Positions 1,249 through 25,403 of a stretch of 64,000 nucleotides of DNA are shown in pieces. The DNA is from Opitutia bacterium (GTDB taxonomy: Bacteria > Verrucomicrobiota > Verrucomicrobiia > Opitutales > Coraliomargaritaceae). Every line of letters begins with the position of its first letter. Position 1 is the first letter of the stretch. The position numbers were made by a program, and so were the translations under genes. Location: contig JAQWIW010000034.1 in the NCBI GenBank assembly GCA_029248665.1, positions 1-64,000 of the forward strand, read 5' to 3'. Below the pieces are notes generated by a model. It saw nothing but the letters and a program-made list of their open reading frames with translations. It did not search any database and was not told where the DNA came from.

Positions 1249-4200
1249 ATGAATTTATCCCTTACTTATCGTCCTTTTGCCTATATTGCAATTGCTAGCT
1301 TATCTCTCTTCTGCCTTCAGCCTGATAGTGAAGCAAGCTTACCTGAATCTTTAGCCATTGAAGTTAAAAATATCATTGATTGGGACACTGCTTCTGGGCA
1401 AACCTACCAATTACAAAAAAGTACTTCTTCAAATATATGGAGCGATGTAGGAACACTCGGACAAGGAAATGGGCAGCCTTTTCAGCACGACTTAGATACA
1501 TTAGAACCTGGTACTGAATATCGCGTAGTAAAAACGCTTAATGGAAATGAGAATCCATTAGCGATCTGGAGTGCCTTTGCTGATGGAGCAGGTACTTTAG
1601 TCAGTGGCACGAATAACGATATCTTCACCTTTCCAAGCAGTGCTCAGTCCTGGGCAGGCTTTGCTAATGATGAAACATCGATGTATCCACTCACATTTTC
1701 TAATGGAGGAACGATTACATTCACCGCATATATGGCAGAAGAAGGCGAAGGAAGCTCAGGCTCAGGACCTAGTGGACCTAGTGGACCTGGTGGCTCTACT
1801 AATCCAATAAGTACAAATTCTGCGAGTATCTATTTTCGTTTTGAAAAAAACCCCTATCCAGATGTAGAACCTTCCTATAATACCGCACAAGTAGTGATTA
1901 ACGGAACAACTCCTAGCGAATATTCCATATCTTTCCCCTCACAAGGAAATAATACCTTTAGTTCATTCATTTTTTACGTTGTTGATCGAGACAACCCAGT
2001 CGTTCTTCAAAATGTACGAGTGACCGATGATTCAACTGTGGTAGGTGAAACAGAAACCATTTCAGTGACTCCAGAAACGGTAACCGAAATTTCATGGCCA
2101 ACACTCGATAATGTTGAATATGATATCATGGAATCCTCAAATTTGGTGGATTGGTCTGATTATGGTACAAATGTGATGGGTAACGGGAATACACAGGCCA
2201 TCACCATGACAATGGAACAAGCGAGCCGTTTTATTCGTGTGGTTGAACCCGAGTTTGAATTGTTTGCACCAAGTGATCCACTTGCTCAACAAAGCATTAT
2301 TGCAAATGCCTTAACTTTATCTTGGAATCCGAGCACCACCCCATCCGTTCTCGGTTACCGTATTTATTATGGAACCGATGCGAGTAATTTAGATCAAACG
2401 ACTGATGTCGCCAATGTAAACTCTGCTACTATTACAGGGTTAACGCCTGAAACGACTTATTACTTTGCGATTGTAGCCTATACCTCTGACGAAGAGACCG
2501 ATCCAAGTGCTACCCTATTTTCAGCGACTCCGGCTCAATCAATCACCTTAGTCCCATTACATGACGCCACTACTACTCTAGAGCCAGTCACTACAATTAA
2601 CGACCCAGATGCTCTTATTACTTATATCGGTGACCGTGGACGAGCACGACATGCGAGAGAAGATTATTCAAATGGGACGCATTTCCGTGCGGACTATGAC
2701 ACCTATAAGACGTTTTATTGGATGGGTCGTACCTATTATCTAGAAATTATTGATCGTGTTGGTAAAAGTCGCTGGGCAGGCACAGACCTTGAAAATACCA
2801 TCACGATTAACTCGACTACGTCTTGGCCTCTAGCCACTAGTGAAACACGTGCGTTCTATCTTGGGCAAACTACCCTCGCCCAATATGCGCATAATGATGA
2901 TGCACCTGATGGTCATCGTGCGATTGACGGTACTTTTTATAACACCAATCAGTCTAAAAAATATACTTCAACCGTTAATTTTAACGCAAAGCTAGGTCGA
3001 GAAATTCGCGTTGGGGATAATATGGAAATTGAATTCAGTCTGTTCATGGCAGGACTTCCTCCAGGAAGTGGCGGTCAGACAAATTATTATGCCACAGGTA
3101 TGCTTTATGTTGTCGGTGAAGGCATTAAACCATGGTATGGAATTGGTGCAAATTTAGATTCTTATCCACTTCCTGAAACTGCTTGGCTCGGCGGAAAAAC
3201 CACTCAGCATCAGCAATATTCCGATGAGCCAACTCATGTGTTTAAACAAATGGCAGGTAACCTTGCTCCAATTAATGCACAAACATTTATGCTTGGTCGT
3301 AGGTTGCACCATACCGATTTTCATGACGGCGCACACTCAGAGCCAGGTAACCCTGTCTTCAGCGAGCACATTGGCGACGGTGGCCCACACTTCATTAATC
3401 GAAGCTGTGTCGCCTGTCATACAAATAATGGACGTGCTGTTCCGAATGCAGTAGGAGATTTAATGACAAAATCGATTGTTCGAGTCGGTATCGATAGTAG
3501 CGGAACAATCCACCCAGAACTTGGAGAAGTCTTGCAAACACAAGCAACCTCAGGAAATACGGTAGAAAAAACTGCCAGCCGCACAGCCTATACAGAAATT
3601 ACGGGTACATACGGAGATGGAACTGCCTACTCTTTGAGAAAACCTAATTATTCATTCGGTGGGACTGCTCCTGACTATTATTCAGTGCGAGTTGCCCCCC
3701 AATTAGTAGGACTTGGTCTCCTTGAAGCAATTGATGAAAGTACCATTCTCAATCTCGCCGACCCAACTGACTTAAACAATGATGGTATATCTGGTCGAAT
3801 CAATGCACTCAATGACCCAGAAACGGGAGATATACGCCTTGGTCGCTTCGGCTATAAAGCATCTAAGGCTAAGGTTAGCCAACACATAGCGAGTGCGTTA
3901 AATACAGATATGGGTGTGACAACGACCATCTACCCAACGATTGATAGTCGATCTGATACGCCTTCTTTAGAAGTGACTGATACTGAACTCGATCAAATGT
4001 ATCGTTATGTAGCGCTTCTTGCACTCAATCCTCAGCGTATTTACAATAAAGGCACTAGTACATTAATGAATGGAATTGTTGAAGGTGAAACTTTATTCAA
4101 TCAAGCACAGTGCGTGTCTTGCCACGTCAGCACTATGACAACAAGTGAATACCATCCCCTAACCGAATTGCGCAACCAAACGATTCGTCCATTCACTGAT

Positions 4201-4470: not shown

Positions 4471-4491
4471 TCTGACAGAATTACTTTTTAA

Positions 4492-4705: not shown

Positions 4706-4734
4706 AGCCTTTTGATTCTGTTATCTTTGAGATC

Positions 4735-4855: not shown

Positions 4856-5731
4856 CTATTCGCTCAAAGTCGCTTTTAAGAATAAGCTATTTTCAGAGGC
4901 TTCAACTGTTTCAGTTTGAAGTAATTCCCATGTGTTCAAATCAGAGCTTGAATAAATATTAAGTGTCTTAGTTGACGGTGCGGTTAAAGCATACTCTTGC
5001 CCATAAACAAGCATGTTTTGTCCTCCCATGTACCCATGGTACAGGCAAATCAATGAAGCACTTCCAAAATTACCCGATACATAAACCGTGATATCTCCAT
5101 AGTAAAAATCTTTACCATTGGCATCGACTAATTTTTTGTCCACATCACCGATGTAACTTATATTAGATGTATTTGAGAGAGCCATCGGGTGAGAACTAGA
5201 AATATTGGTAAAAGTATAGGTGCCGATGCCCATGCCGTATTCACTGACGTATTCTGTATTACCATTAAGCGTATATTTATTTCCGTTGGAGCTGACAATG
5301 GATACTGGGGTCTGAAATGAGCTGATCTGTTCAGGGTTCGTTGCATTGGCTAAATTAAAACTGCCATTCATACCCCCGTGAATATTACATATATAAGTGA
5401 AGGTATAGGTGGAATAATCTGTATTTGCATCTAAAGTAAATGATTGGCTATCACCTGTAGTTAGCTGGTTCACTAAATTGGTGCTAAGCCCATTGCTATC
5501 CGTAAGATACATCTTAAAGGGATGACCACTAGTATTTAAGCCAATAAAGGTATAAGCCTCACCTGCAACTAAAGTATCTGAGCCAGAATTAACAAAATCA
5601 AAAGGCGTTGTTTTGTCTTCATCTAGATAGAAACTATAATATGGAGAGGCAAAACCGATAGTTTCGACATAAATAGTCGTAGCGGATAAAAGAATTTGAG
5701 CAATAAAGAATAATGGGAGTAATTTGTACAT
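4856..5731 (-). CDS. Secreted tandem cupredoxin-like protein
   Basis: The 291-residue product has a signal peptide (about 1-17) and two successive domains that each end in a C-x-x-H-x-x-M motif, the pattern of a type 1 copper site. In the first, candidate ligands are H70 (SGHPF), C115, H118 and M121 (CNIHGGM). In the second they are H181 (SSHPM), C229, H232 and M235 (CLYHGYM). A short C-terminal segment (about 250-291) with NIYSSSDLNTWELL resembles C-terminal beta modules of other secreted proteins in this phylum. Cupredoxins carry single electrons, so this protein could be the partner of the convergent di-haem protein. That pairing is inferred from position only. Confidence 0.75.
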   Translation of the reverse strand: MYKLLPLFFIAQILLSATTIYVETIGFASPYYSFYLDEDKTTPFDFVNSGSDTLVAGEAYTFIGLNTSGHPFKMYLTDSNGLSTNLVNQLTTGDSQSFTLDANTDYSTYTFTYICNIHGGMNGSFNLANATNPEQISSFQTPVSIVSSNGNKYTLNGNTEYVSEYGMGIGTYTFTNISSSHPMALSNTSNISYIGDVDKKLVDANGKDFYYGDITVYVSGNFGSASLICLYHGYMGGQNMLVYGQEYALTAPSTKTLNIYSSSDLNTWELLQTETVEASENSLFLKATLSE

Positions 5732-5799: not shown

Positions 5800-7203
5800 T
5801 TAATTTTCCGCTCTGCGAATTTCCAGCTCAGCTTGAATGGTATTCGTTTGCTCTTGAGTTAACGGGAAAAAGAAAAGGATGATTCCGTTAATTAAGGCAA
5901 GTCCACCAGGAATGATTGAATACATCATCAGGATACCACCGAGTGCTTCCGGTGTTTGTGCTTGGTTGGCGACATAGCCAAAGAGCGCTAACATACTAGC
6001 GGCGGCTGAGGCTCCTATTGTATAACCAAATTTTTGTGCAAACATCGTAGCGGAGAAGATTAATCCCGTTGAACGTCGATTAAACTTCCATTCATTGTAA
6101 TCGGCAACATCCGTATATAAAGCCCAAACAATAGCTGGTGTGGGTCCTGCAACTAAACTTGCGAAAATATTCACACAAAAGATTAATTTCACTGACTCAG
6201 GTGGAATCAGATAAAAAGACATAACCGCTACTGCATTAATGAGTGTAAGAGTGATTAATGCATTCCGTTTACCCAATAGCTTGCCGATACGTCCGCTGAA
6301 CGCACAGCCGATAAGGAAGGCAATCGATCCCGTTGTCATAAAGACGGTAATGATATCGAAATTCAGAGGGAATAATCCTAAATTCAGTGAAAATACCGGG
6401 GCATCTCCCACTCCAATCACATATTTAAAGTAATAAACGGTAACTGCATTTCGAATAGCCACATTAGCTAGAGTACAGATACCGGCAATAGCCATGATTA
6501 GGAATGGAATATTGCCCAATAAAAACTTAATGTCATCTTTGACATGAACATTTGTATCTGGTTGTGGCTTAATTCTCTCTTTTGTATTTGAGAAACAGAA
6601 GAAAAACATCAAGACAGACAATACGGCAAATATAGCCATAGTCACTGACCACCCTCTTTGCTCGTCTCCTGCACCGATTAACTGAATGAGAGGAAGGGTT
6701 AAGAGTACTACCAATAATTGCGCACCAAAAGCACCCATGAATCTAAAGGTAGATAAAGAAACTCTGTCATCCGAATTAGGCGACATTACCCCCATCAATG
6801 CTGAGTACGGTACATTAATCGCCGTATAAACCATTTTGATGGAAATATAGGTTATCCAAACAAAGATTAATTTACCGAGTTCGTTTAACTCTGGCCCCGC
6901 GAAAACGGCATAAAATAAAATACCGTAAGGAATCGCAAACCATTTAAGGTAGGGGCGATACTTACCTGACTTCGTACTAGTTCTATCAGCGATGGCCCCC
7001 ATCATTGGGTCGTTAATAGCATCCCAAATTCCTCCGACAAACAACATTAAGCCAACTGCAGCCGCATTTAATCCGAATACATCGGTTAAATAAACCATTA
7101 AGAATACATTGATTACATGAAACGAGAGGTTGGAGGCAAAATCTCCACTAGCGTAAGCAATCTTTTCTTTAACTTTAAGAAGAGGGGTATTGGTTGTTTT
7201 CAT
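5800..7203 (-). CDS. GPH-family sugar:cation symporter
   Basis: This 467-residue membrane protein has about twelve hydrophobic segments and the hallmark of the glycoside-pentoside-hexuronide:cation symporter family near the N-terminus: a conserved Asp-rich stretch (GGIWDAINDPMMGAIADRT) followed by KYRPYL. It would import a small glycoside across the inner membrane using a cation gradient. It is the last gene of a three-gene operon, 24 bases after the phosphorylase gene, so the likely substrate is the oligosaccharide that the phosphorylase cleaves (beta-1,3-gluco-oligosaccharides). The family is secure; the substrate is inferred from neighbours. Confidence 0.88.
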   Translation of the reverse strand: MKTTNTPLLKVKEKIAYASGDFASNLSFHVINVFLMVYLTDVFGLNAAAVGLMLFVGGIWDAINDPMMGAIADRTSTKSGKYRPYLKWFAIPYGILFYAVFAGPELNELGKLIFVWITYISIKMVYTAINVPYSALMGVMSPNSDDRVSLSTFRFMGAFGAQLLVVLLTLPLIQLIGAGDEQRGWSVTMAIFAVLSVLMFFFCFSNTKERIKPQPDTNVHVKDDIKFLLGNIPFLIMAIAGICTLANVAIRNAVTVYYFKYVIGVGDAPVFSLNLGLFPLNFDIITVFMTTGSIAFLIGCAFSGRIGKLLGKRNALITLTLINAVAVMSFYLIPPESVKLIFCVNIFASLVAGPTPAIVWALYTDVADYNEWKFNRRSTGLIFSATMFAQKFGYTIGASAAASMLALFGYVANQAQTPEALGGILMMYSIIPGGLALINGIILFFFPLTQEQTNTIQAELEIRRAEN

Positions 7204-7227: not shown

Positions 7228-10200
7228 CTATTTCAAAAACCTAGCGGATGGTTGAGATACGTAAATAGCAAAAACATTCGAAGTACGAGTCATTAGTGAC
7301 TGAGAAATAGACTTAGGCAAAATATCACCAGCAATCTTCTCGGAAGTGCCATCTAAGAATTCTACGCGAATTTCTGCTAGTTCAGCATCGCTGAGTGCAT
7401 AAATCACAGGTATTTGTGTAATCGTAAATAACAATGCATTTACAGGAACGGTAATCATGCGTTTTGATTTATCTGGATAAATACAAGTCGCCTCTTGTGG
7501 CTCTTTACCGAGTTCTTCTTTTCGCAATAAACGAGGTTTAAACTCTATCGTTTCATTATTGAATTGAACCCCTAATTCTCCAAAACGGCATATAACGCCT
7601 TCTTTCACCATACCGGTTAAACCTGGCTGTTGAGCTCCAGAAAACGATGGCGTATGCGAATAAGCATCTGCAGTAAATGCTCCATATTCAGAAGCTTTTT
7701 TCCTAAATCCTAAGCCTTCTTGCACATCATAATAGGATTCAACAAGCGCTTCGAAATCCTCATTTTGACCTTCCTCAAGAGCAATTTCTTGAACGGATAA
7801 CATTAACTTGGATACCATATGCCAATAAATACTACCCAGTCCTTCGTATGCGAACATAGACCCACTTCGCCCTGTAAATGCTTTATGATTAAAGGTTGCC
7901 TCATAAAGCTCCAGAATAGCTTTCTCATCTTCAACAATCAATGCTTCTAGAGACTTATCTTTAGCCAACTGGTCAATGACTTCCTTCAATTCAAAACGAT
8001 TTCTAATAGATGAATTAAATCGGAAGCAGTCATCGGGTGAAGCTTCCATAATGCGTCTGTCATTTTGTTCAATCATGTGTGCTAGAGCTGGAACAGCTTT
8101 TGCTGCCTCAATATTCACTTTATTGTAGTCTAAAAATGCAGGTAATCGCTTGTCTGCATAAAGAATGTAACTTTTTCTATTTTCACAATATAGGTCACTG
8201 TTTCTAAGAGATTCTAATAATGCTTTAGCTTCTTTTGCTGAAAGTGCCTTAGCACTTAATACGGCCACCTGACCTTCAAGCATCGGCCCTAAGTGTTCAA
8301 TAGAAGCAAGTTTCTCATTAACATCTAAATGTAAAATATTATAGGCGTTATACAAACCATCTGATCTCAAGTTAGCACGAGTCGCTTCCTTAAGATGATT
8401 TTGAACATTGTGGATAAATGTTTTAAGGTCTTTTACTTGGATGCTTTCTTTCTCACCAAAAGCACCTTGATAAACATTTTTACGGTATCGCTCCCCTGCT
8501 TTACCTAGTTTCTCAACTACTTGATAACGAATATGGCTATCTTTATTAACTGCTTGAGGATCTTCGGCAAAGACTTTGGAAAGATCATCCATCAAAGATT
8601 TTAAAGAAGCAAAACACTGTAAATCTTGATCTTCCTCTATCAAAGAATCAAAGAATTCTAAATAACGTAAAATATAATAGGTTGTGACCATGGAAGTGCC
8701 AAAGCCAGCTAATGCATTATTAGCATCATTCCACTCGGGTCTTTGTGTATTCATCCAAATACCACCATTAGGAATATAATTACTCAGTTTGACTAAAAGT
8801 GGAATTAGTAATTTTTCAAAAAGATTGGCTCGAACCATTTGAGCATCTGCATCATGCACTAATTTTCCATCTGCTCCTATTAATTCAAAGCGTTTTGAGA
8901 TTTCTTCATTTCGTTTCTCATTAAAATAAATGGAATGATTTGGATTCACTTCTAAAAAAGAGAAATCTTTGATCTCATAAGGTACATCCGCATAGACAAA
9001 TAAATTTTCATTCATCAATGCATTGAGTGACTTTGGTTTTAGCGACTCGGTAAATTCGAGTAACTTAAGTAAATAGATAATTTGATGATCGCCCCAATAG
9101 CCAATTGAAGCCCATGGATCAGTTGGATCAGGCTCTTCCCATTCGATACCATTATCGGTAATTCGATAAGGGTTGTAGCCATCTGACGTAGTAGCATTTA
9201 AAAACTTATGGATAAAGGCATCATTGTAATATGGAAAACTCCAAGCAAGTGCTTCCCAATTTTGGAAAATATCTCTCCAATTTCCTTGGAATCCAACAAT
9301 AGGATTACCTCCTTCGTCTTTTGTTTTTATATTGAAACGATTCCATGGACGACTTGGATCACCATGGCGGCGACTGAAAACTAAAGGTAAATATTCGTTA
9401 CAAATACGCTGTAAATCAGGACTCCCATTTGCAGATGCTGCCACTAATTCGTTGTAATTGAATTCTTCTGGTAATGCATCAATAATCGCTAAATCAGCCG
9501 CGTTCAATTTCGAGTTATGTTTTACCAAATGAGGTTTTAAAAGGCTTTTTGAAATAAGATAATTATCAGAAAATACGCCACCACGCATTATATTAAATAA
9601 AACATTTGCTCTATGATAGGTAGATACAATTTCCTCAGAACATACCTGCAATCCATCAGATGCTTGAATCAATTCCTCGAGAGCATTGCGCCCTTTTGCA
9701 ATATCTTCAGTTACTGATTCCCATAAAGCATCTTTGTCTTTAAGTGCAATTGCCAAAGTGGCAACTTCACTTTGTGTTTTATCAATATCTACAACAACTG
9801 ACCAAGATTTTGTTTCTTTGGAGCCTAATTGAAATGAACCTGCATTGTAAAAACAGCCTCTAAGTCCGCGAGAAAAATGTGTGCTTTCAAAACTAGGATT
9901 ATCGAGAAATGCTTCTACATCTGCTTCTTGGATTAAAATTGATGATTCATCCCAGCCATGTGACCAAAGTACCGTTGCCTTCAGGCATTCTAATGGAATC
10001 GCCTCATCGACTAGACTAGCAACCATGCGATGAACCAACATCTGCTTGGAGCTTTCCAATTCACTAACCTTATAAGCATCGGTTAAGCAACTGTAGGCCA
10101 AATGCGTACGATCATCTACTCCTGAAGCTAAGAAATCGGATAATCCATCGACTAAACTTATCTCTATACTTCCTGAACCTAAATTGACTAATTTCGATCT

Positions 10201-10659
10201 ACGAATGAATCCATATTTTTCGGAAGTAGACCAAGTATAAGAAAAAGTGAGATTTAAATCGTTATTAATTTCTTCAAAAATCAAAGTATCACCATTAATA
10301 CTCTTATAAATCTTACGGCTAATCGAAAATACTCGCTCACTGGAAGACTTAAATGGCTCCCATACTTTATCCGCAACTTTAACGATGGTTTGTGGTCCAG
10401 TGCAGTTGGAATTGTTGATAATTTTATCAACTGTATAATACGGGAAAAGTGCGTGATCCGGAGATCCTCTACCTGCACTTAAGGCTCCATTTGTAGCGGT
10501 AAAAAACCAATGATCTTGTGCACTAATCATTGACACAAAAAATGTAGGAATTGCCTCTAAAGCATTGATACAAATAAATCGCTCACCCTCAATATCTTGG
10601 AAATTATAATCCATGTTTGCTTGCGATTTGATGTTATGAGATTCTGTCTGTGTAGTCAT
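7228..10659 (-). CDS. Large glycoside phosphorylase, GH94/GH149-like (probable beta-1,3-glucan phosphorylase)
   Basis: The 1143-residue protein has no signal peptide, so it should be cytoplasmic. Early residues (DHWFFTATNGALSAGRGSPD) look like the N-terminal beta-sandwich of clan GH-Q phosphorylases. A central (alpha/alpha) barrel follows, with the segment PEWNDANNALAG, where D645 lines up with the catalytic acid in the GDWND motif of cellobiose-type phosphorylases. The length is near that of GH149 beta-1,3-oligoglucan phosphorylases (about 1100 residues) and longer than GH94 enzymes. It would split imported beta-1,3-oligosaccharides with phosphate to yield glucose-1-phosphate and save ATP. 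The neighbouring GH16, GH17 and symporter genes support this. GH161 or GH94 assignment remains possible. Confidence 0.65.
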   Translation of the reverse strand: MTTQTESHNIKSQANMDYNFQDIEGERFICINALEAIPTFFVSMISAQDHWFFTATNGALSAGRGSPDHALFPYYTVDKIINNSNCTGPQTIVKVADKVWEPFKSSSERVFSISRKIYKSINGDTLIFEEINNDLNLTFSYTWSTSEKYGFIRRSKLVNLGSGSIEISLVDGLSDFLASGVDDRTHLAYSCLTDAYKVSELESSKQMLVHRMVASLVDEAIPLECLKATVLWSHGWDESSILIQEADVEAFLDNPSFESTHFSRGLRGCFYNAGSFQLGSKETKSWSVVVDIDKTQSEVATLAIALKDKDALWESVTEDIAKGRNALEELIQASDGLQVCSEEIVSTYHRANVLFNIMRGGVFSDNYLISKSLLKPHLVKHNSKLNAADLAIIDALPEEFNYNELVAASANGSPDLQRICNEYLPLVFSRRHGDPSRPWNRFNIKTKDEGGNPIVGFQGNWRDIFQNWEALAWSFPYYNDAFIHKFLNATTSDGYNPYRITDNGIEWEEPDPTDPWASIGYWGDHQIIYLLKLLEFTESLKPKSLNALMNENLFVYADVPYEIKDFSFLEVNPNHSIYFNEKRNEEISKRFELIGADGKLVHDADAQMVRANLFEKLLIPLLVKLSNYIPNGGIWMNTQRPEWNDANNALAGFGTSMVTTYYILRYLEFFDSLIEEDQDLQCFASLKSLMDDLSKVFAEDPQAVNKDSHIRYQVVEKLGKAGERYRKNVYQGAFGEKESIQVKDLKTFIHNVQNHLKEATRANLRSDGLYNAYNILHLDVNEKLASIEHLGPMLEGQVAVLSAKALSAKEAKALLESLRNSDLYCENRKSYILYADKRLPAFLDYNKVNIEAAKAVPALAHMIEQNDRRIMEASPDDCFRFNSSIRNRFELKEVIDQLAKDKSLEALIVEDEKAILELYEATFNHKAFTGRSGSMFAYEGLGSIYWHMVSKLMLSVQEIALEEGQNEDFEALVESYYDVQEGLGFRKKASEYGAFTADAYSHTPSFSGAQQPGLTGMVKEGVICRFGELGVQFNNETIEFKPRLLRKEELGKEPQEATCIYPDKSKRMITVPVNALLFTITQIPVIYALSDAELAEIRVEFLDGTSEKIAGDILPKSISQSLMTRTSNVFAIYVSQPSARFLK

Positions 10660-13615: not shown

Positions 13616-16600
13616 ATGAATTCCCACTTTTCTGCTAAAAAGAAAGCACATAAAGATCTCCCTTTTTGTACAAAAAATAGGACATCTGGATTTGCTTTAA
13701 TCGTAGCTCTCGGGCTCATGTCATTTGTCCTCTTAATTATGCTGGGACTCAGTACTTTAGTTCAAGTAAACAGCAAGCTCTCATCATCGGAAAAAGATCT
13801 CACATCAGCCAAACAGAATGCACTTTTTGCCCTGAATTTAGCTATAGGAGATTTGCAAAATGAAATGGGGCCCGATCAAAGAATTTCGGCCACTGCTTCC
13901 ATTCTTGATACATTTCCTGAAACAGAAGCGATTGATGGGGTGAATAATCCATATTGGACAGGAGCTTGGAATAGTAGCAATCCCTTAGAAGGTAATTTAG
14001 TAGATCAAGTTATTTCGAGTAAACGCTCTGCTTCAGATGGCAAACCTTCTCATTTCCGTCGTTGGCTTATCTCCACACCTACCAATGACGATAGCATGTC
14101 CCCTGAAGACAAGATCCTGTTTGCTCGAAATTTCAGTAAAGACTCAGAGGGTGCAATTATCATGGTCGGTTCAGGGACTCTAGGCGAAGAGGCAGCCACA
14201 GAACATGGGGTATTTGCCCCACGCCAGATCATAAGCAAGGAGCAAGATAAAGAAAGTGGCTATGCTTATTGGATTGGTGATGAAGGCGTAAAATCAAGAG
14301 TTGCTGGTGCAGCCTCAGAAAAAATAGAGACAAATTTAGAACAAATATTGGATGTCAATAATGCAGGCAGTCCTCGACTGAACGCGATTGAAGGCTTTGA
14401 AAATGCAGAAGATATATCCGATCAATCTGATAAAATACTCACTCTCGGAACTGCCCAGTTCGCCTTCAACGAGGCACTTGAAGGAAATATTGATGCTTTT
14501 AAAAGTAAATTTCACATACTTTCTGCCTTTAGCAGAGGTTTGATGGTCGATGTGAAAAATGGAGGCGTTCGCAAAGATCTAAGCTTACTCTTCGCCACGG
14601 AATCACTCCCTATCGAATATGACGAGGTGCCCATTTTTACTTATGATGCATCCGAGGGACCCTATTGGAATTATGCCCAGCGTTATCATAATATTTATAA
14701 GAAAATACGCAACGATGGGGGTCGGAATTATCTACAAACCTCTGATTTTTGGGATGATGCTAAAGTTGATATTCCTGACTCCGAAACAAAATATACCGAT
14801 TTCCCCATTCCTGTCTTAGCCCGTATGCAAGTCATCTTTTCACTGCACAAACAGCGTAATACATACAACGGGAGGTATAATGAAGCACTGAATATTGAAG
14901 ACGACACTGGAAACCCTGGCACTCCTAGTGACCCTGGCACTCCTGGTGGACCCGGCGGACCCGGCGGACCTGGTGGACCCGGCGGACCTGGAGATTCCGA
15001 TGATACTGATACCAGCACGAACAGAGAAACCACGTTTAGTGACTATGAGCCTTTTGGTGGTGCCACAATCTCTGAAGACGGTAATTTTGAAATTCCAGAC
15101 ACTGCAGAAGAATCAGCTGGCTTTAGAATAGCAGATACTTCTGCTTATCCCTTTTCATTTTTTAATGATGGCAGTTTAAAATTTAATGCTTCTGTGCCTG
15201 ATGGTGATAGCGTAAAAGTTTATTTTACATTTGGACAATCGACTGATGATAATCCAGATAATGATTACAGGACAGATACCATTACTTTGAGTGGAAATTT
15301 GCCTAGTGAATTCACCATAGACATTCCCAAACAACAAGGCTTTGATGAATACACAACCTTCTCCATTTATATTGAGGAAATAAATACCCCATTTATTTTA
15401 GGTCAAACCACTATCATAGATGATAAGGAATCGAGTTCTGGAGGCATCATAATTGATGATAGGGCAAAGTCACAAAGTAATGATCAAGAAATTCTTCAGT
15501 TAATGATGACTCCAATATTCTACCTTTGGAACCCCTATAATATTGAAATTGTCATGGACGCTCATCCGGAAAATCACGGATCTTATGAATATTTTTATGC
15601 CCCACCTGAAATTGAATTCACTTACGATGGCAGAAATTGGATTAATTTAAGAAATTTTGGATCTTTTCAATTTGGTCGAGGTGACGAATTGCTAGCAATG
15701 TGGTCTTCAAATAATCGTTTCAACAGAGCAACTGACGGAGCCCCTTTTGAGATTCCTGCAGGAGAATTTAGATTTAATCGAGTTATTCCTACGATGATAA
15801 ATCAAACTCCTGATTATGAGAAAATGCAATTTTTTGATATTTACAGCTATTCCTATGAAGGGGTGTTTGGAGATCCAGATTTTCCTGATGCTTTGCCTGC
15901 TGGATATACACCAGCAGTAGCCAATTGGGTACAGTCGACTAATCTCATTGATGGCTATGCAGATGGAGCTTTTACAGGATTGTTTTCTCCTATTATAAAT
16001 CATGAAGGAGAAAATAAAACGGATCAAAGAGTTAAAAAAGTAGTGACGAACATCGTCCGCTCAAATGGCGACGATATAAGTGACATTATCAACTATGGTC
16101 CTTATCTATTTAACATACGGCTTAAAAATCAGTTCTTTACTAGTCGCCTATCATTAGGAGCTGGATGGAACAGCTTTAATCCAAACTACGACGTCAATCA
16201 AGTAGGAAGCCACTTACTGCCCAAAAGAATGATTGGAGCACTCAATATTGACTCGGGTGAAGCGATCGATAATAGATCCTACCATCAATCTACTTTACCG
16301 TCTGCGATTACGGTAGGAGACGAACAGCTTTTCAATGTTTACAATCCAACCCAAAATACTTGGGGAGATATACGATATGCACCAAAAATAGCGCTGAATG
16401 TCGATATTCGTGGTTTTACCGAAGAAAACACACCAGGCAAACATGCCTTTTTTGTCGACCCTGCTAATACCTATTATTATGATGATGAATCTGACGATAC
16501 TTCGCTAGCCCTTTCCCCTTTCCGTATTTACGTAAAAGAAATCCCAGGAAGTGATATCATCCAAACGCATCCTACCAATGATGCACAAATAGGCTTCGAA

Positions 16601-18004
16601 ACAATTGCAGGTGATACAGTTTATAAATGTGTTTCCAAAGAATTACCCTTAATTCCCCTGCTATCTTTAACCCAACTAGACCATGCACCACTAGGTCGTG
16701 ATAGTGACCACTTTGCTTATTATTCAGGAAGAAGAAATCCATTTTCTATCTGGCAATACGAGACAGCCTCCTTAAAAGATCCACGCATCATGTTTCGAGG
16801 TAAAGAAGAGCGTCCAATGGCACCCACATTTAATATGGCCGTTGGTAATAGTTGGGCCCACCCTACCATACCACTCAACGATATCATCGATCCCGATGAT
16901 ACTTATAAAGGATATGCTACTGATCGATCCTTCCTTTTAAATGAAACCCTCTTTGATTCCTATTTCTTTAGCGGCTTAGCCTTTCCGAGTGGGCCTTTCC
17001 GCAATGATATGCCTGAGATGGGAGACCTGCTCGGCGATTGGGTTTATCAAAAAAGTAAACTCCCTAACTCAAATTATTTATTTAAGGGACCGAGTAGCAT
17101 GTCTTTCAAGGAAGCTATCAATGTTCTTTCGTTCAGTAATGTAGACCCGGTTGATCTATTTGATAAAATTGCAAATTTCATTGAGATTGAAGGTGCATTT
17201 AATATAAATTCAACCTCAGTTGATAGCTGGGTTGCTCAACTCTCCTCATTGAGAGGGAAATCCGTTCTCTACGATAACTCAGATTATGGAGATTATAATA
17301 TTGATAGCACAAATATCGAAAACACGCCTATCTTAAGCCAAGCTATACCCGCCGAAAAATCACTTGAAAATACAGGAGGCACCATAGATAGCATTATTCA
17401 AAATTCATGGTCTCATTATCGCTCACTTGAAGATTCACAAATTGTGAAACTTGCAGAAGAAATCGTGAAGCAAATCAAAGCAAGAGGGCCTTTCTTATCC
17501 TTGTCTCAATTCTTTAATCGAGAAATCTCTGAACGAAATCCTTATAATATCAAAGGGGCTATTCAAACAGCTATCGATGAATCTTATATAAATTTAGAGT
17601 CACCGAAAAAGAATGTCGCTTCTGCCCTAAGTGGACGCTTTGATGGAAATCCAGGAAGCCAGCAGTGGATAGGCAATACAGATTTTGATGCACCTGAAGC
17701 TTTTGAAGGTGATGCGAATGAAGGTTTATCTGGATATATCACTCAAGCATCCTTAATGCGCCCCTTAACCCCAATCCTTTCGGCAAGATCCGATACTTTT
17801 GTCATACGTGCTTATGGAGACGCCCAACAAAATGGGGAAATCAAATCTAAAGTATGGTGTGAAGCTGTTGTCCAAAGAAGAATTGACCTCGTCGATGAAG
17901 AAAATTCCCTTTTAGATTCCAGCTTTGACAGAAATGATGCCAATGCTTTCAACCGAAAGTTTGAAGTGGTTAGTTTCAGATGGCTGAATGCAGATGAAAT
18001 TTAG
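13616..18004 (+). CDS. Giant pilin-like surface protein with collagen-like linker and shared beta module
   Basis: This 1462-residue protein has a prepilin-like N-terminus: a basic leader ending in G25, then a hydrophobic helix starting FALIVALGLM and continuing amphipathically (about 26-85, with QNALFALNLAIGDLQ). This matches the PilX-like N-termini of very large verrucomicrobial proteins (Verru_Chthon cassette type). Residues about 430-465 form a collagen-like Gly-Pro-Gly repeat, followed by the shared beta module (about 472-605). The C-terminal end (SARSDTFVIRAYG and WCEAVVQRR) is typical of the same family. It probably sits in the envelope or a type IV pilus/type II secretion-like fibre; insertion of the module suggests a glycan-binding role. 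It is followed 17 bases later by a small exported protein gene. Confidence 0.75.
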   Translation: MNSHFSAKKKAHKDLPFCTKNRTSGFALIVALGLMSFVLLIMLGLSTLVQVNSKLSSSEKDLTSAKQNALFALNLAIGDLQNEMGPDQRISATASILDTFPETEAIDGVNNPYWTGAWNSSNPLEGNLVDQVISSKRSASDGKPSHFRRWLISTPTNDDSMSPEDKILFARNFSKDSEGAIIMVGSGTLGEEAATEHGVFAPRQIISKEQDKESGYAYWIGDEGVKSRVAGAASEKIETNLEQILDVNNAGSPRLNAIEGFENAEDISDQSDKILTLGTAQFAFNEALEGNIDAFKSKFHILSAFSRGLMVDVKNGGVRKDLSLLFATESLPIEYDEVPIFTYDASEGPYWNYAQRYHNIYKKIRNDGGRNYLQTSDFWDDAKVDIPDSETKYTDFPIPVLARMQVIFSLHKQRNTYNGRYNEALNIEDDTGNPGTPSDPGTPGGPGGPGGPGGPGGPGDSDDTDTSTNRETTFSDYEPFGGATISEDGNFEIPDTAEESAGFRIADTSAYPFSFFNDGSLKFNASVPDGDSVKVYFTFGQSTDDNPDNDYRTDTITLSGNLPSEFTIDIPKQQGFDEYTTFSIYIEEINTPFILGQTTIIDDKESSSGGIIIDDRAKSQSNDQEILQLMMTPIFYLWNPYNIEIVMDAHPENHGSYEYFYAPPEIEFTYDGRNWINLRNFGSFQFGRGDELLAMWSSNNRFNRATDGAPFEIPAGEFRFNRVIPTMINQTPDYEKMQFFDIYSYSYEGVFGDPDFPDALPAGYTPAVANWVQSTNLIDGYADGAFTGLFSPIINHEGENKTDQRVKKVVTNIVRSNGDDISDIINYGPYLFNIRLKNQFFTSRLSLGAGWNSFNPNYDVNQVGSHLLPKRMIGALNIDSGEAIDNRSYHQSTLPSAITVGDEQLFNVYNPTQNTWGDIRYAPKIALNVDIRGFTEENTPGKHAFFVDPANTYYYDDESDDTSLALSPFRIYVKEIPGSDIIQTHPTNDAQIGFETIAGDTVYKCVSKELPLIPLLSLTQLDHAPLGRDSDHFAYYSGRRNPFSIWQYETASLKDPRIMFRGKEERPMAPTFNMAVGNSWAHPTIPLNDIIDPDDTYKGYATDRSFLLNETLFDSYFFSGLAFPSGPFRNDMPEMGDLLGDWVYQKSKLPNSNYLFKGPSSMSFKEAINVLSFSNVDPVDLFDKIANFIEIEGAFNINSTSVDSWVAQLSSLRGKSVLYDNSDYGDYNIDSTNIENTPILSQAIPAEKSLENTGGTIDSIIQNSWSHYRSLEDSQIVKLAEEIVKQIKARGPFLSLSQFFNREISERNPYNIKGAIQTAIDESYINLESPKKNVASALSGRFDGNPGSQQWIGNTDFDAPEAFEGDANEGLSGYITQASLMRPLTPILSARSDTFVIRAYGDAQQNGEIKSKVWCEAVVQRRIDLVDEENSLLDSSFDRNDANAFNRKFEVVSFRWLNADEI
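14943..14991 (+). repeat. In-frame 9-base tandem repeat coding Gly-Gly-Pro
   Basis: Units of the type GGTGGACCC/GGCGGACCC/GGCGGACCT repeat about five times inside the 1462-residue gene and encode a collagen-like GGP tract. Both strands stay open through it, giving a false antisense frame. Such repeats can change copy number by slippage, which would vary linker length. Confidence 0.85.
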
Positions 18005-18965: not shown

Positions 18966-21062
18966 ATGCATTCTACAAAATCGACTTCAGTTTTAAGAAA
19001 TATTCTTCTAAGTAAAAATGTAATTCTTTTTGCAATCACTGCATTAGCTTCCCCTAGTTTCCTAAACGGGCTCAGTAAATCATTTGTTGCATCTGATTGG
19101 GGTGAATTTGCAGACAGTGGTGCTACCGTAAATGGTGGCGTATTCGAATTTCCTACAAGTGCGGCATCTTGGGCTGGATTTTGGAATTCAAAAGATTCAT
19201 TATTTCCATTCACCTTTGCATCGGGTGGACAATTAACCTTCACAGCATCTGTTCCAGATGGAGGCACTGCGGATGTAAACTTCAAATTTGAAAGGCTTTC
19301 TTTCAATGCAAATGGCAATGGTGCAGCAGACACTCTTCCTAGCTATAGAACTGAATCTATAACTATAAGCGGCGCCAACGCTACTCAGTATACGGTCGAA
19401 ATACCCTCACAAGGGAGTAGTACTTTTTCATCCTTCTTATTTTATATCGAAGATCGTGACGTGCCTGTTCAATTAAGCACTGTAGTGGTAGAGGATAGTG
19501 TAAGCACAAACAATGAGAATCCCGGATACTATAGCCCTAGTAACGTAACAAGCTATAATGGAAATTTCATCTTTGGGGAAAGTGTTGATACTGAAAACAG
19601 CATCCTATGGAAACAAGAAGTAGATCCAATTATTCACAATAATGAAATTCAAAATTATAAAGGCGGCTATGTCGGTCTCGATGATAATGATAATTTAGTC
19701 CTAAAACTAGAAAGAACTGGATCGAATACTTACTACTCTTCTAGAATTAATACTACGATAAATGATGGCATAAAAGTAGGATCCGGGGAAAAACTTACGG
19801 TTGAGTTTGAAGCACAATTACCGATGGCTAAAGATAGTAACGGAAATTATGTACCAGACGTACCTCTTTGGCCTGCATTATGGCTAATGGGCAATGATCA
19901 ATTAAATAATAATTGGGTAGGCTGGCCGTATTGTGCCGAAATTGACGTTATGGAATGGTCTCCAACCAAGGCCCCAAATTATCAAACTCAAGCCAATGTA
20001 GCCTATCATTGGAATGGGCAAGACGCAGGAAGCTATACGCATTGGTACGACTCTCAATATTACACCGATTCTGAAATCCATACCAAATTTCACAAATGGC
20101 GGGTGGATATCTACCGCTATGATGATGGGATTAATACGAATAAGATAGAAATCTTCATGGATGATGCTTACATTTCCGGGTCAAGATTCGAGGAAAGTAC
20201 AAGCTCCTACAATCAAGAATTCTGGTATCCAACAACAAGTAAAAACCCACAAACATTTGGTTCAGGAGATAAAGAATATTTTCTCATTATGAATATTGCA
20301 TTAGGAGGAGACTACCCTCAAACAAGCAGCGTCCCTTCAGATTTTCAATATGCAGAAATGGTTGTTAAAAGTGTAAACTATGAAATTACATCACTGACAA
20401 AGTATACCTTAGATTTGAATTATGATTTGGCTAAAATTGCGGTAACCAAGACTCCAGATAGTGCAGATTACAGTAGTGGTGAATCAGTATTGGTTGAAGC
20501 GAGTGCTAACCCTGGATATGTCTTAGGCAATTCTGATTGGATCACTAATACAATTATAATGGATGCAAATAAGTCATTCAGTATCTCTGCTTATCCAGAC
20601 TTTAGTGATAGCGATGGAGATGGTTTAAATAATTACAATGAAGCTGTAATTTATAATTCAAATTTGAACAATCCTGACTCTGATAACGATAACTCAAGTG
20701 ATTACTTTGAATCTATTGCGGGTACATCTTTAACTGATGCTAGTGACTATTTTTATCTGCAAGGCTCTATGGATACTTCTGGTCTCTATAATATAGAATA
20801 TAATACCAAATCGAATCGCGAATATTCACTAAGCGTTAGTGATGATTTAACAAACTGGTATAATTGGAAAACAGAAAGTGGTGATGGCAGCACTTATTCA
20901 AATATTTTTGATCCAACCCTTGAGAGTATCAACGGTTTAAATAATAATTCCCAAAACTTCTTTTTTAAAGTTAATATAGAAGAAGAACAAGATTCATCCG
21001 GACCAGGTGAACCAAGTGGACCAGGTGAACCAAGTGGACCAGGTGGACCAGGTGGACCATAG
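18966..21062 (+). CDS. Secreted GH16 endo-beta-1,3-glucanase (laminarinase) with shared beta module
   Basis: This 698-residue protein has an N-terminal signal segment (about 1-40), the shared beta module (about 43-178) and a GH16 catalytic domain (about 185-475). The catalytic core is EIDVME, with nucleophile E325, D327 and acid/base E330, preceded by WPALWLMG, a laminarinase-like substrate strand. A domain with calcium-type repeats (DSDGDGLNNYNE and PDSDNDNSSDYFE, about 545-580) follows. The protein ends in a collagen-like tail, GPGEPSGPGEPSGPGGPGGP, right at the C-terminus. It should cut internal bonds of beta-1,3-glucans outside the cell. The GH17 gene starts 14 bases downstream, so the pair is an operon. 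Confidence 0.9.
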   Translation: MHSTKSTSVLRNILLSKNVILFAITALASPSFLNGLSKSFVASDWGEFADSGATVNGGVFEFPTSAASWAGFWNSKDSLFPFTFASGGQLTFTASVPDGGTADVNFKFERLSFNANGNGAADTLPSYRTESITISGANATQYTVEIPSQGSSTFSSFLFYIEDRDVPVQLSTVVVEDSVSTNNENPGYYSPSNVTSYNGNFIFGESVDTENSILWKQEVDPIIHNNEIQNYKGGYVGLDDNDNLVLKLERTGSNTYYSSRINTTINDGIKVGSGEKLTVEFEAQLPMAKDSNGNYVPDVPLWPALWLMGNDQLNNNWVGWPYCAEIDVMEWSPTKAPNYQTQANVAYHWNGQDAGSYTHWYDSQYYTDSEIHTKFHKWRVDIYRYDDGINTNKIEIFMDDAYISGSRFEESTSSYNQEFWYPTTSKNPQTFGSGDKEYFLIMNIALGGDYPQTSSVPSDFQYAEMVVKSVNYEITSLTKYTLDLNYDLAKIAVTKTPDSADYSSGESVLVEASANPGYVLGNSDWITNTIIMDANKSFSISAYPDFSDSDGDGLNNYNEAVIYNSNLNNPDSDNDNSSDYFESIAGTSLTDASDYFYLQGSMDTSGLYNIEYNTKSNREYSLSVSDDLTNWYNWKTESGDGSTYSNIFDPTLESINGLNNNSQNFFFKVNIEEEQDSSGPGEPSGPGEPSGPGGPGGP
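21000..21060 (+). repeat. C-terminal collagen-like coding repeat of the GH16 enzyme
   Basis: Units of GGACCAGGTGAACCAAGT repeat in frame and run to the stop codon, encoding Gly-Pro-Gly-Glu/Gly-Pro-Ser repeats. The nature of the repeat is the same as in the di-haem and pilin-like proteins, but the position (extreme C-terminus) differs. Confidence 0.85.
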
Positions 21063-21076: not shown

Positions 21077-22066
21077 ATGATTCGTTTAACTTTATTGTCT
21101 TTTTGCTTTTCTATTTTGTGTGCATCATTGCCTCAATTACCTACTGATCTCATTAATGGAGAACATTGGGCGCTTTCTTACTCAGGCTTCAGGATAGGAC
21201 AACATCCAGATCGAGGTGATGGGGCTAAGAATCCTAGTGAAGCTCAAATTATTGAGGATCTAAACATATTACTTGATGAAGGCTTTAAGCTTGTTCGGAT
21301 GTATGATTGCGACACCAATACCCAAATGACACTTGAAGTTATAAGAAAACATAACTTTCCCATGAAAGTGTTATTAGGCATTTGGTTGGATGCAGAAATA
21401 AGTAATCATGATGGATGTGGCTGGCTGACAGAGCCAATACCCGAATCGCAACTAGCAGAAAACCGAGTTAACAATCAATTAGAGGTTAAAACTGCAATAG
21501 AATTAGCGAATAAGTATAAGGATATCGTTGTTGCGATCAATGTCGGCAATGAAGCACTTGTCAGTTGGAATGATCACATGATGTCTGAAGAACGTGTCAT
21601 TCAATTTGTGCGAGAGGTAAAAGCTAATATTGAACAGCCTGTGACTGTTGCAGAAACCCATTATTGGTGGAGAGATTATGGAGCCAATCTGGCTAAAGAA
21701 CTTGATTTTCTAGGGGTGCACATCTATCCCCTATGGGAAGGTGAAGGTATTGAAAAAGGAATGTCTTTTACAATCGAAGGTATTGAGAAAGTGGCTAAAG
21801 CACTACCAAATGCAAAAATTGCGGTGCTGGAAGCTGGTTGGGCTACTGTAGCCAATGAATTTGGAGAAAGAGCGAATGAAGCCAATCAAAAGCTATATTA
21901 TAATGAATTTAAACAGTGGTCAAAAGCCAACAATGTCACTGTATTCTTCTTCGAAGCGTTTGATGAGCCTTGGAAAGGAAATGATGATGCCCCAAAGGCT
22001 GCAGAGAAAAATTGGGGTGTGTTCTTTGAGGACAGAACGCCAAAATTGGTCTTACAAAAAGATTAG
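21077..22066 (+). CDS. Exported GH17 beta-1,3-glucanase
   Basis: This 329-residue protein has a signal peptide (about 1-17) and a single TIM barrel. The GH17 catalytic pattern is present: acid/base E159 in NVGNEALVSW and nucleophile E252 in VLEAGWAT. GH17 enzymes hydrolyse beta-1,3-glucan chains, or transfer glucan segments. It lies 14 bases after the GH16 gene, so both are probably made together to reduce laminarin to short oligosaccharides. The length is normal for a bacterial single-domain GH17. No shared module or collagen-like linker is attached. Confidence 0.88.
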   Translation: MIRLTLLSFCFSILCASLPQLPTDLINGEHWALSYSGFRIGQHPDRGDGAKNPSEAQIIEDLNILLDEGFKLVRMYDCDTNTQMTLEVIRKHNFPMKVLLGIWLDAEISNHDGCGWLTEPIPESQLAENRVNNQLEVKTAIELANKYKDIVVAINVGNEALVSWNDHMMSEERVIQFVREVKANIEQPVTVAETHYWWRDYGANLAKELDFLGVHIYPLWEGEGIEKGMSFTIEGIEKVAKALPNAKIAVLEAGWATVANEFGERANEANQKLYYNEFKQWSKANNVTVFFFEAFDEPWKGNDDAPKAAEKNWGVFFEDRTPKLVLQKD

Positions 22067-22452: not shown

Positions 22453-22481
22453 AAATTTATAAGTATACTTATTTAAAGGTA

Positions 22482-25403
22482 TTACTCGTTAGTAACCGAT
22501 ACTCTAATAAACACTGTATCTGAATCTGTGCCGCTTACAGTAGCAGTCGCAGTAGTAGTGCCTTCAGAGGGGCTATTATCTTCTGCTGCAATAGTTACAG
22601 TAGTACCATCGACTGTATCTCCACTGTTGCTCCAAGTAGTAAGATCCTTAGACCATAGATAGCTGGCGCTGACGTCATCAGACAAATCACTATTCTTAGA
22701 GTGTTGCATACTCACACCATTACTTGTTTTAGCAATACTTGACATGCCTCCTGAGCGGCTACCAGGTAAAGTACCTAAGAAGCTCTCTAATCCATTTGGA
22801 ATACCATCATTATCAGGATCCGCTGAGAATCCAGCATTGGCTCCAGATAAACCATTATCAGATGCCCAATTTTCAAAGGTATTCGCTACAACAGCTTCGG
22901 AAACCGAAATCTGATCAAATGCAATAACGGATTCCGCACCAGATATTAGATAAAGCAATGCAAAAGTAGTACCTACAGGAACTTCAATCGATTGAGTGTA
23001 TTGTACCCATTCGCCATTAGTTGGATTTGCATCCGCATGTATAACTGCACTAGTGTCTGCTGGTACGTAAACCCAAGTTTGTGTATCAGCGACGTAGAAA
23101 GCAAATTGGACTAGACCTAAGTCAGTGCCAGAAATACGATTCATGTAGTAAGAGACATCATATGTTGTACCCGCTTCCATGCCTAATTGATCGATGGTTT
23201 CATAATTGCCTTGATTAGAAGCGATATAAACGCTGTTTCTATCCGTTCCAGCATTTGTCATGACAACTTGGCCAGGGATAGGACCATTGCCTCCGTTTGT
23301 ATTAAAATCGACTCCAGCAACAAATCCCCAATATGCATTGGAACCATTGGTGAAATTACCTTCTTTAATCGAAGTTGTCTCATCATATGTACCCACAAGA
23401 TTGCTGACTTGAATGTTACCCCAATCGGTAGCTGGGTTAGCATTTCTTCCTTCCAATAGAAGTCCTAATTGAGGAATATAATCGCCAGTTGGGATGTCTA
23501 AAGATACAGCAAAATCACCTGCAGCAGACAAAGTTACTTGATCAATGCCTACTGTAACGTAGTTATTGTTAGGATCAGTATATTTGATGAATGCTGTTAC
23601 TGTGTATCTTGGGTCTAAGGTGTAACTGTCAACAGTACCACTGAAGTTCACTGTCTTCCCAAGAATTTCACTCGTATTTTGCGTACCCTCTATTTTTAAG
23701 GTTTGTTCAAGGTAATGAATTCCATCATCAGAGCCTTCTTCGCTCCATGTATCATAAGAAGCAGTATTAGGCATTAAAGTAATAACTCCATTTTCCCAAG
23801 TAGCAGGAAGGTCTGATAATTGACTCCAACTATCTTGACCTGCAAAAGTACCCTTTGTATCACCAGCTTCTAATGTGAACCAAGATACATAAGCGGACCA
23901 TTTGTAAGCAGGGTCATCATCACGGCCTGTACCAACATCCTCATCTGTATCAATTATACCATTCGAAAATGCGGTTTCACCGTTGTATACTGGCGGCAAT
24001 GTTACGGTTGTATCCGCCCAATTAGCCGTAAATGTTAAGGTAGCTTCCTGATCAAATACTAATCCATTTGTTGGAAATTCAGCAACTTGATCATTTGATA
24101 AAGCAAATCCACCCCATGACTGAGAGGTTGATAAAAATGTGTACGTTTTAGTTGCGTCATCTATACTTACTCCACCAAAGCTATTAGAAAATACTAGTGA
24201 GTCTTCTCCGGAACCACCATAAGTAACGCCTCCAACATTTAAAGTAACATCTGTTACTGTAATTGGCTGATCTGCACCTATTGCGTAAAGCAACATATTT
24301 TCAAATGTAGCAGCTGGATCCGAATAGGCTGGGATAGTAATAGAATATGATTGAGGGTCAGTGTTAGTAATTTCAACTGTTTCTGTGTTATGAGTATAAG
24401 CAGCACTACCACCAGATATTTCTTCAAATACAAAGCGGACTCCATTAGATATAACGGTCGCTGCACCTTCGTCATCAAAGACAGTTACATCACCTAATAT
24501 AACGGGGCTATCTCTTTCAATAATATAGAATAAAAAAGATGAGAATGTTTGATCTCCTTGCGCAGGGAGTGCGACTGTGTACTCAGTAGGAGTGCTTCCA
24601 GAGACAATTACCTGTTCAGTTGAGAAATTAGGATTAACGTCTGGATATGGGTTTTTCTCAAATTTAAAGTAAACAGTAGTATCCGAGCCACCTTCTGGTA
24701 CTGATGCGGTAAATGTAATCTGCCCCGCCTCGCTAAACGTGAATGGATAAGCAGAAGCATCATCATTTGCAAATCCAGCATAAGATTGAGCAGCTGCTGG
24801 GAAATTGAAAACTCCTTCTTCATTGCTCGCACCTTCAAAAGCACCCCAAGCAGTGATAGTTGTTTCACCTGAAGCACCAGGCGTTGGAGCATTCGGATCA
24901 ATTACTGGATCATCATAAACAACTTGAATGTCTTGGATCTGAACAGGAGTGTCCGCTTCTGTAATGTAAAAAACAAAATTTGAGAAAGTCTGATCGCCTT
25001 GCGCAGGAAGTGTCGCGGTGTAAGTTTGAATTGTGCTACCAGAAATTGGAATACTAACTTCAAAATTTGGTGTGTTATTTGGATGTGGTGCATTCTCAAA
25101 TACAAATCGCAAGGTTGCGCTTTCTCCACTTTCCACTGCTGCGTTCACAGTAAGTTGACCGTCAGCCGAAAATATAAATGGGAGGTATGCTTCACCGCCA
25201 CCATCATTAGTCGCAGCAAATCCGCCCCAGGATTGATAGCCGCTGGCAGTACTTGACCAATTAAATGTATCACCATCAACAGAAGCGCCACCGAAAGTAC
25301 CGTAGGAAGGAATAGTGATCTCAGCCGCTTGAGCGGTACTGATGGAGAAAAACATCGTTATAAATAAAAATAACGAAGCATAAAGAGAACGTAAATGTTT
25401 CAT
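22482..25403 (-). CDS. Secreted multi-module protein, probable polysaccharide-binding protein
   Basis: This 973-residue protein has a signal peptide (1-26, ending TAQAA). Two full copies of the shared beta module follow (about 28-165 and 182-322), then a second-half copy (about 327-395) and a first-half copy (about 410-470). Two CBM4/9-like beta-sandwich regions lie at about 535-670 and 678-840. A DPDNDGIPNGLE calcium-type motif (about 865) leads to a C-terminal module. No catalytic motif is visible, so it is probably a binding or surface-layer protein. It is monocistronic on the minus strand with its own terminator, and it faces the GH16-GH17 pair. Its ligand is inferred from context. Confidence 0.7.
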   Translation of the reverse strand: MKHLRSLYASLFLFITMFFSISTAQAAEITIPSYGTFGGASVDGDTFNWSSTASGYQSWGGFAATNDGGGEAYLPFIFSADGQLTVNAAVESGESATLRFVFENAPHPNNTPNFEVSIPISGSTIQTYTATLPAQGDQTFSNFVFYITEADTPVQIQDIQVVYDDPVIDPNAPTPGASGETTITAWGAFEGASNEEGVFNFPAAAQSYAGFANDDASAYPFTFSEAGQITFTASVPEGGSDTTVYFKFEKNPYPDVNPNFSTEQVIVSGSTPTEYTVALPAQGDQTFSSFLFYIIERDSPVILGDVTVFDDEGAATVISNGVRFVFEEISGGSAAYTHNTETVEITNTDPQSYSITIPAYSDPAATFENMLLYAIGADQPITVTDVTLNVGGVTYGGSGEDSLVFSNSFGGVSIDDATKTYTFLSTSQSWGGFALSNDQVAEFPTNGLVFDQEATLTFTANWADTTVTLPPVYNGETAFSNGIIDTDEDVGTGRDDDPAYKWSAYVSWFTLEAGDTKGTFAGQDSWSQLSDLPATWENGVITLMPNTASYDTWSEEGSDDGIHYLEQTLKIEGTQNTSEILGKTVNFSGTVDSYTLDPRYTVTAFIKYTDPNNNYVTVGIDQVTLSAAGDFAVSLDIPTGDYIPQLGLLLEGRNANPATDWGNIQVSNLVGTYDETTSIKEGNFTNGSNAYWGFVAGVDFNTNGGNGPIPGQVVMTNAGTDRNSVYIASNQGNYETIDQLGMEAGTTYDVSYYMNRISGTDLGLVQFAFYVADTQTWVYVPADTSAVIHADANPTNGEWVQYTQSIEVPVGTTFALLYLISGAESVIAFDQISVSEAVVANTFENWASDNGLSGANAGFSADPDNDGIPNGLESFLGTLPGSRSGGMSSIAKTSNGVSMQHSKNSDLSDDVSASYLWSKDLTTWSNSGDTVDGTTVTIAAEDNSPSEGTTTATATVSGTDSDTVFIRVSVTNE

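Follow-up and report, generated by a model that had tools for sequence, protein, structure and literature searches.

We asked why four otherwise very different exported proteins, encoded within a single stretch of DNA of 64,000 nucleotides (hereafter the window), should carry one common module of about 130 residues. The four are a di-haem oxidoreductase (DHOR) of 1073 aa (1249-4470, +), which bears an fn3 domain and the module near its N-terminus; a pilin-like protein of 1462 aa (13616-18004, +); a laminarinase-type GH16 protein of 698 aa (18966-21062, +), in which the module lies N-terminal of the enzyme; and a 973-aa protein (22482-25403, -), in which no Pfam domain scored over its cut-off. 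The di-haem protein matched the DHOR profile PF06537 with 226.3 bits (cut-off 22) and contains two haem c motifs (CxxCH), at aa 720 and 955. The N-terminus of the pilin-like protein weakly resembled Verru_Chthon cassette protein A and GspK, with scores far short of the cut-off of either. The GH16 protein did not reach Pfam GH16 and was assigned through PDB sequences, i.e., 5nbo (E 3.8e-10) and 17 others, many of them named endo-1,3-beta-glucanase or laminarinase.

The same locus encodes a GH17-type protein of 329 aa (21077-22066, +), whose match to PF00332 is confined to aa 244-324 and lies just over the cut-off (29.7 bits against 28.2), a beta-1,3-oligosaccharide phosphorylase of 1143 aa (7228-10659, -; 6hq6, E 9.6e-280), which we take to belong to family GH149, and a GH158-type protein of 451 aa (10684-12039, -; 9oro, E 2.4e-83). 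An MFS_2 sugar transporter (5800-7203, -; PF13347, 294.5 bits) and a LacI-type regulator (12416-13462, +; PF13377 and PF00356 over cut-off) complete the set. With beta-1,3-glucan hydrolases, a phosphorylase, a sugar transporter and a regulator clustered in this way, the predicted gene content is that of a beta-1,3-glucan locus; the GH16, GH17, GH158, phosphorylase, transporter and LacI genes bear out the 'laminarin locus' of an earlier sequence-only reading of this DNA. A 291-aa protein encoded convergently with the DHOR (4856-5731, -) contains two HP...CxxHxxM stretches that by eye resemble the copper site of cupredoxins; Pfam and PDB searches lent this no support.

Five full copies of the module were located by profile searching. 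They lie in the di-haem protein (1549-2034, +), where a long G/P/S-rich insert occupies the loop between the two halves of the module, behind a G/P-rich linker in the pilin-like protein (15023-15427, +), in the GH16 protein (19080-19499, +), and twice in the 973-aa protein (24909-25322 and 24468-24866, both -). A profile built from these same five copies recovered all of them from the source genome with E-values of 1.8e-64 to 5.0e-56. In an independent check, each protein was left out in turn and scored with a profile made from the copies of the other proteins. The 973-aa, GH16, di-haem and pilin-like proteins then scored 250.1, 134.5, 120.3 and 90.7 bits, as against 15.6, 8.4, 9.1 and 11.8 bits for the best of 999 shuffles of each, thereby ruling out chance resemblance of the full copies. 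These leave-one-out profiles confirm one module in four different exported proteins, as had been read from the sequence, and the copy positions agree with those given earlier to within about 20 bases. When 856 frames of at least 30 aa in the window were scored, no good match was found beyond the four proteins (next best domain E 0.92). Elsewhere in the source genome, an additional copy was present in an 864-aa protein on contig C18, in a stretch that also holds a GH1 and a sodium:solute symporter.

Recent duplication inside the window was rejected as the origin of the copies, since in a tree the di-haem, pilin-like, GH16, first 973-aa and permuted (see below) copies of the source genome each paired with the corresponding copy of a same-genus genome (G004); the second 973-aa copies of the two genomes did not pair, in a tree of few columns. 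Three of the window proteins, the di-haem, pilin-like and GH16 ones, also have recurring collagen-like stretches rich in G, P and S, as do the relatives of these proteins in G004.

The 973-aa protein had been described as having two full and two half copies of the module. The full copies stood; the halves fit a single permuted copy better than two separate fragments. Directly after the second full copy comes a C-half (24240-24446, -; profile positions 63-129), followed by an N-half (24009-24197, -; positions 9-60). The leave-one-out test gave 18.2 bits for the C-half and 11.9 bits for the N-half, both weak beside the 15.6 bits of the best shuffle. With a 32-row profile that does not contain the two halves, scores rose to 38.1 bits (E 5.6e-11) and 28.5 bits (E 5e-8), respectively. 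The order is kept in G004, where identity over 153 residues is 59.5%, the corresponding figures for the full copies being 71.0% and 53.4%. The cut point coincides with the loop that bears the long insert in the di-haem copy. Given the order of the halves, and that there is no space for the missing parts, one permuted copy is likelier than two fragments, and 24009-24446 (-) is probably one circularly permuted module. A structure prediction of this stretch, from two rows only, reached a pLDDT of 62.8 and a pTM of 0.67, and a fold search with this low-confidence model gave a best Z of 6.3.

Rearranged copies were also observed elsewhere. A sensor-like membrane protein of a gammaproteobacterial MAG (L050:654-2654, +) carries a permuted module (profile positions 95-131, then 9-100) and by eye adjoins a histidine kinase and HD-GYP-type and NtrC-type regulators; the protein may be a sensor of glucan, or the permuted order may reflect misassembly. 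In another genome (G013; L028:613-2520, -), the module is split by about 180 residues within a protein that has an FSH1 serine hydrolase domain, and the first profile gives the second piece a weak score of 4.4 bits.

What kind of domain is this? Scanning 32 copies against Pfam, which includes CBM_6 (PF03422) and CBM_35 (PF16990), gave no consistent match: seven families were each hit by one copy only, the best E-value was 0.0024 (PKD), and no carbohydrate-binding module (CBM) family was among them. No NCBIfam match was located on the module, PDB sequences yielded none either (best E 0.35, for one copy), no CBM was listed when the 32-row profile was compared with PDB sequences, and PHROGs provided no lead. 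An Ig or fn3 identity was rejected; in the di-haem protein, fn3 lies apart from the module, at aa 341-421. We found no description of the module in the open-licence literature. The earlier statement that the landmarks fit no named family accordingly stands for Pfam, NCBIfam and PDB sequences.

An AlphaFold2 model of the second full copy of the 973-aa protein, made from 32 rows, was an all-beta beta-sandwich (pLDDT 96.7, pTM 0.90), in keeping with the beta-rich module expected from the sequence. Residues conserved in the module include W/Y30, Y41, E71, Q104 and D120, numbered as in row 1 of alignment A4. Foldseek matched this model to 11 PDB chains at E <=0.001, led by a CBM22 (E 2.7e-5) and including a GH51 enzyme, a gingipain adhesin domain and a sugar isomerase. 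VIA-align placed it closest to CBM29 (Z 11.6, 2.4 A over 115 residues), CBM36 (11.2), CBM22 (10.6), the CBM6 of laminarinase LamC (10.6), CBM11 (10.2) and CBM4 (10.1), in a list that also holds an ephrin receptor. The nearest solved folds of the model are mostly carbohydrate-binding modules, and the three methods agree on a compact, non-catalytic predicted fold of a known CBM type. The module resembles these CBMs in its predicted beta-sandwich, its length and its attachment to polysaccharide-active enzymes, with Z scores of 10 to 11.6, but shares only 6-16% sequence identity with them in structure alignments and has no profile match to CBMs in the PDB-sequence and Pfam searches. Because the fold resembles many CBM families alike, the ligand cannot be told from it. 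As modelled, the module has a fold of the CBM type and belongs to a sequence family unnamed in the Pfam, NCBIfam and PDB libraries searched. A further candidate relative was Uk-C, the C-terminal region of the Vibrio vulnificus GH17 laminarinase, which is reported to bind laminarin through tryptophans and, like the module, is a beta-sandwich attached to a marine beta-1,3-glucanase (PMC9026390). Four GH17 C-terminal domains of similar build, presumed relatives that stood in for the V. vulnificus protein, gave no match to the module (best HMM E 0.069, hhalign probability 2.8%).

Contrary to the sequence-only reading as it stood, the module turned out not to be peculiar to the window locus. It was present in five of 38 relatives, the source genome included, and up to 17 matches occurred in one gammaproteobacterial genome. 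Within the class, the source genome was the one positive among 286, and in the order of the L034 genome that genome was likewise the one positive among 295; the frequency was 12/140 in the family of the L032 genome (Halieaceae) and 25/112 in that of the L048 genome (Porticoccaceae). A scan of species genomes with one peptide pattern, which for that reason undersamples the family, returned 20 loci, 19 of them outside the genus. The 20 loci belong to Halieaceae, Glaciecola, Opacimonas, Porticoccaceae, SAR86, other Gammaproteobacteria, Flavobacteriales, a Cryomorphaceae MAG and one Verrucomicrobium (L038, the G004 contig). In the tree, Bacteroidota copies form one side of a branch, and the position of the Verrucomicrobial copies is not resolved. 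This patchy, marine spread over three phyla suggests horizontal transfer of the module. There was no sign of phage or plasmid carriage: tblastn with one Halieaceae copy (E up to 0.01) found nothing among 50,697 records of phages and 72,556 of plasmids, and IMG/VR, scanned twice with patterns each taken from one protein, gave no module match.

We examined which proteins carry the module in these genomes. The 19 loci outside the genus were found by the module alone, and their neighbourhoods were annotated partly by eye; in 11 of them, GH16 or GH158 is part of the module protein or encoded close to it. GH16 is within the module protein in eight (L033, L034, L036, L039, L043, L046, L048, L049) and nearby in two (L035, L040), and GH158 with GH16 pieces lies nearby in L045. 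No glucanase was seen in the fetched DNA of the other eight (L032, L037, L041, L042, L044, L047, L050, L051), which include fasciclin, lamin-tail and RTX proteins. At L040, the order is GH3, module protein, SusC, SusD, lipoprotein and GH16 (by eye; GH16 by Pfam); at L033 and L034, a GH16 with four modules, a TonB receptor, GH3, MFS and GH1 stand in a row (by eye). The related Opacimonas immobilis is described as having a laminarin-induced locus of that kind, with a 1599-aa GH16 protein that the description labels GH16 only (PMC12844025). Among 49 distinct module-bearing frames (52 rows less three duplicates, fragments included), 13 contain GH16, four GH81 (two of these being fragments) and one GH5 with CBM6, so that in 18 of 49 the module is a contiguous part of a carbohydrate-active enzyme. 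DHOR accounts for two and fasciclin for four, and single cases were a glucose/sorbosone dehydrogenase type (G004, 1564 aa), FSH1 (G013), lamin-tail (L047) and RTX (L051); other partners may be missed, as Pfam was run on 30 of the 49. In Halieaceae, Pfam GH16 was present in all 12 module-bearing genomes, compared with 52 of 140 overall (Fisher test, p 2.8e-6, relatedness not corrected). The module precedes GH16 in the window and follows it in the same-genus genome G005, as exchangeable binding modules do. G005 also has a pilin-like protein without a module match (L026:14944-18924, -), at a locus with GH16 and GH17-type genes; the module is thus optional on the pilin-like protein, and docking through a pilin need not belong to the system.

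The reading that we favour, and regard as probable, is that the module represents an unnamed family of the CBM kind, a beta-sandwich of about 130 residues whose most likely ligands are chains of laminarin or other beta-1,3-glucans and which keeps its fused partners on the substrate. As a substrate-targeting domain it would hold hydrolases on laminarin, the 973-aa protein would capture laminarin with avidity from its tandem copies, and the DHOR would be held on the same polymer as the hydrolases. The four window proteins would then share the module because hydrolysis, capture and a redox step are brought to one polymer. The module is found among beta-1,3-glucan genes in three phyla, and the type of DHOR seen in the window locus occurs beside module-bearing GH16 genes in Gammaproteobacteria. 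A common ligand is the simplest reason for the sharing, and, of the earlier proposal of a common ligand or docking partner in a coordinated surface system, it is the ligand that is sustained by the GH16, GH81 and GH5 partners in other phyla; the docking partner and surface system, based on co-location, found no such support. That the module is instead an already numbered CAZy family lacking a Pfam or NCBIfam model, with the same function but not new, seems to us unlikely. CBM families without a Pfam model exist, and our comparison covered Pfam, NCBIfam and PDB. The 32-row profile, however, is without a PDB sequence match (best E 0.5, to antibody chains); six recent CBM family names gave one review in the open-licence literature, which says little either way.

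Two further explanations do without glucan binding altogether or direct it elsewhere. A structural or adhesive beta-sandwich, serving as spacer or for cohesion or attachment and travelling with exported marine proteins, would account for the module being in tandem with fasciclin domains and in RTX-repeat, lamin-tail and Pfam-domain-free proteins, and adhesin domains are among the top structural matches; the strong preference for partners of the GH16 and GH81 families and for beta-1,3-glucan loci, together with the CBM type of the nearest folds, nevertheless makes this quite improbable. We give still less credence to the idea that the ligand is a different algal polymer, or a partner on bacterial surfaces, so that laminarin enzymes are placed near cells or on particles instead of on laminarin. 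The presence of the module on the pilin-like protein and, in one MAG, on the sensor-like membrane protein of L050 would fit, but the GH16 and GH81 partners in three phyla would presumably need the same partner in all.

Within the favoured reading of a glucan-binding module, a link between DHOR and glucanases was an unforeseen result that bears on the redox part. The window DHOR is 46-47% identical to long DHORs of the Porticoccaceae family over about 600 residues, which include an N-terminal extension of roughly 250 residues, versus 32-34% for two short DHORs (450-458 aa) without this extension. PF06537 was found in 16 of the 112 genomes of that family, and 13 loci (12 plus L165) were examined. 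In five of these (L186, L187, L188, L193, L194), the next gene is a module-bearing GH16 that starts 99-136 bp downstream of the DHOR on the same strand; the L188 DHOR is cut by the contig end. Three more link DHOR to GH3, in one frame with GH3 and CBM6 (L165, L191) or in frames overlapping a GH3 frame (L195). The DHORs of L189 (with CBM6) and L190 stand alone, L192 lies at a contig edge, and the two short DHORs (L196, L197) are unlinked. None of the DHOR frames examined in this family bears the module itself. Of 11 genomes with a long DHOR, 10 contain the module, compared with 25 of all 112 (p 5.5e-7), a count that excludes the partial hits in G762, G808 and G853 and the short DHORs of G846 and G849 and includes G811, which has only the C-terminal part on its contig. 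With all PF06537 genomes the figure was 10 of 16 (p 1.9e-4; Fisher tests, relatedness uncorrected in both). G005 has a DHOR fragment as well, with an MFS-type transporter and, by eye, the phosphorylase as neighbours. A DHOR was found in only four of 18 genomes searched, so most of these module-bearing genomes do without one.

Several of these genes have unusual architectures. The frames at L165 (2743-11100, -; 2785 aa) and L191 (8648-14983, -; 2112 aa) each combine a GH3 beta-glucosidase with CBM6, Lipoprotein_15 repeats and a C-terminal DHOR, and the L165 gene adjoins a module-bearing GH81 fragment. At L186, the GH16-module protein that follows the DHOR (3102-8417, -) also contains CBM6 and a CotH kinase domain (PF08757, 142.7 bits). 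A Cryomorphaceae module protein (L045:8881-10569, +) has a predicted plastocyanin-type copper-binding domain (PF00127, E 6.4e-11), another putative redox-type partner of the module.

These arrangements lead us to propose, tentatively and with more doubt than belief, that the module marks an unrecognized oxidative branch of laminarin use. A long DHOR subfamily would be tethered to beta-1,3-glucan by the module in Verrucomicrobiota; in the Porticoccaceae family, its gene lies about 100 bp upstream of that for a module-bearing GH16, or the DHOR is joined to GH3. Alongside the hydrolases, these DHORs might act on the glucan or on products derived from it. Such a role would be akin to that of CBM-bearing redox proteins, which are thought to assist cellulose oxidation. 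The nearest published parallel is Xyn65 of Gilvimarinus xylanilyticus, a 1,3-xylanase with the architecture GH26-CBM31-CBM6-Big-DHOR, for which the authors suggest a possible oxidoreductase activity of the DHOR on 1,3-xylan and state that they knew of no other DHOR domain in glycoside hydrolases (PMC9638140). The likeness lies in a DHOR domain coupled to a secreted enzyme for a beta-1,3-linked marine polysaccharide; Xyn65 differs in its substrate, 1,3-xylan, and its glycosidase, GH26 (PMC9638140).

The module connects glucan-cutting enzymes with a haem redox enzyme in marine bacteria that carry genes for laminarin use. Since it occurs on laminarin hydrolases in three phyla and is absent from the libraries searched, the binders, surface arrays and redox partners of such systems will probably have been annotated as 'hypothetical', and a profile of the module would flag these proteins. 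With DHOR and glucanase paired repeatedly, whether beta-1,3-glucan degradation includes a redox step can be put directly to the test. Some proteins that hold the module also have another stretch in common, by eye around GxGAxxVGPxxGDxSWW/F, which occurs in tandem in L041 (3393-7145, +) and once in the GH81 fragment of L165 (1-2397, -).
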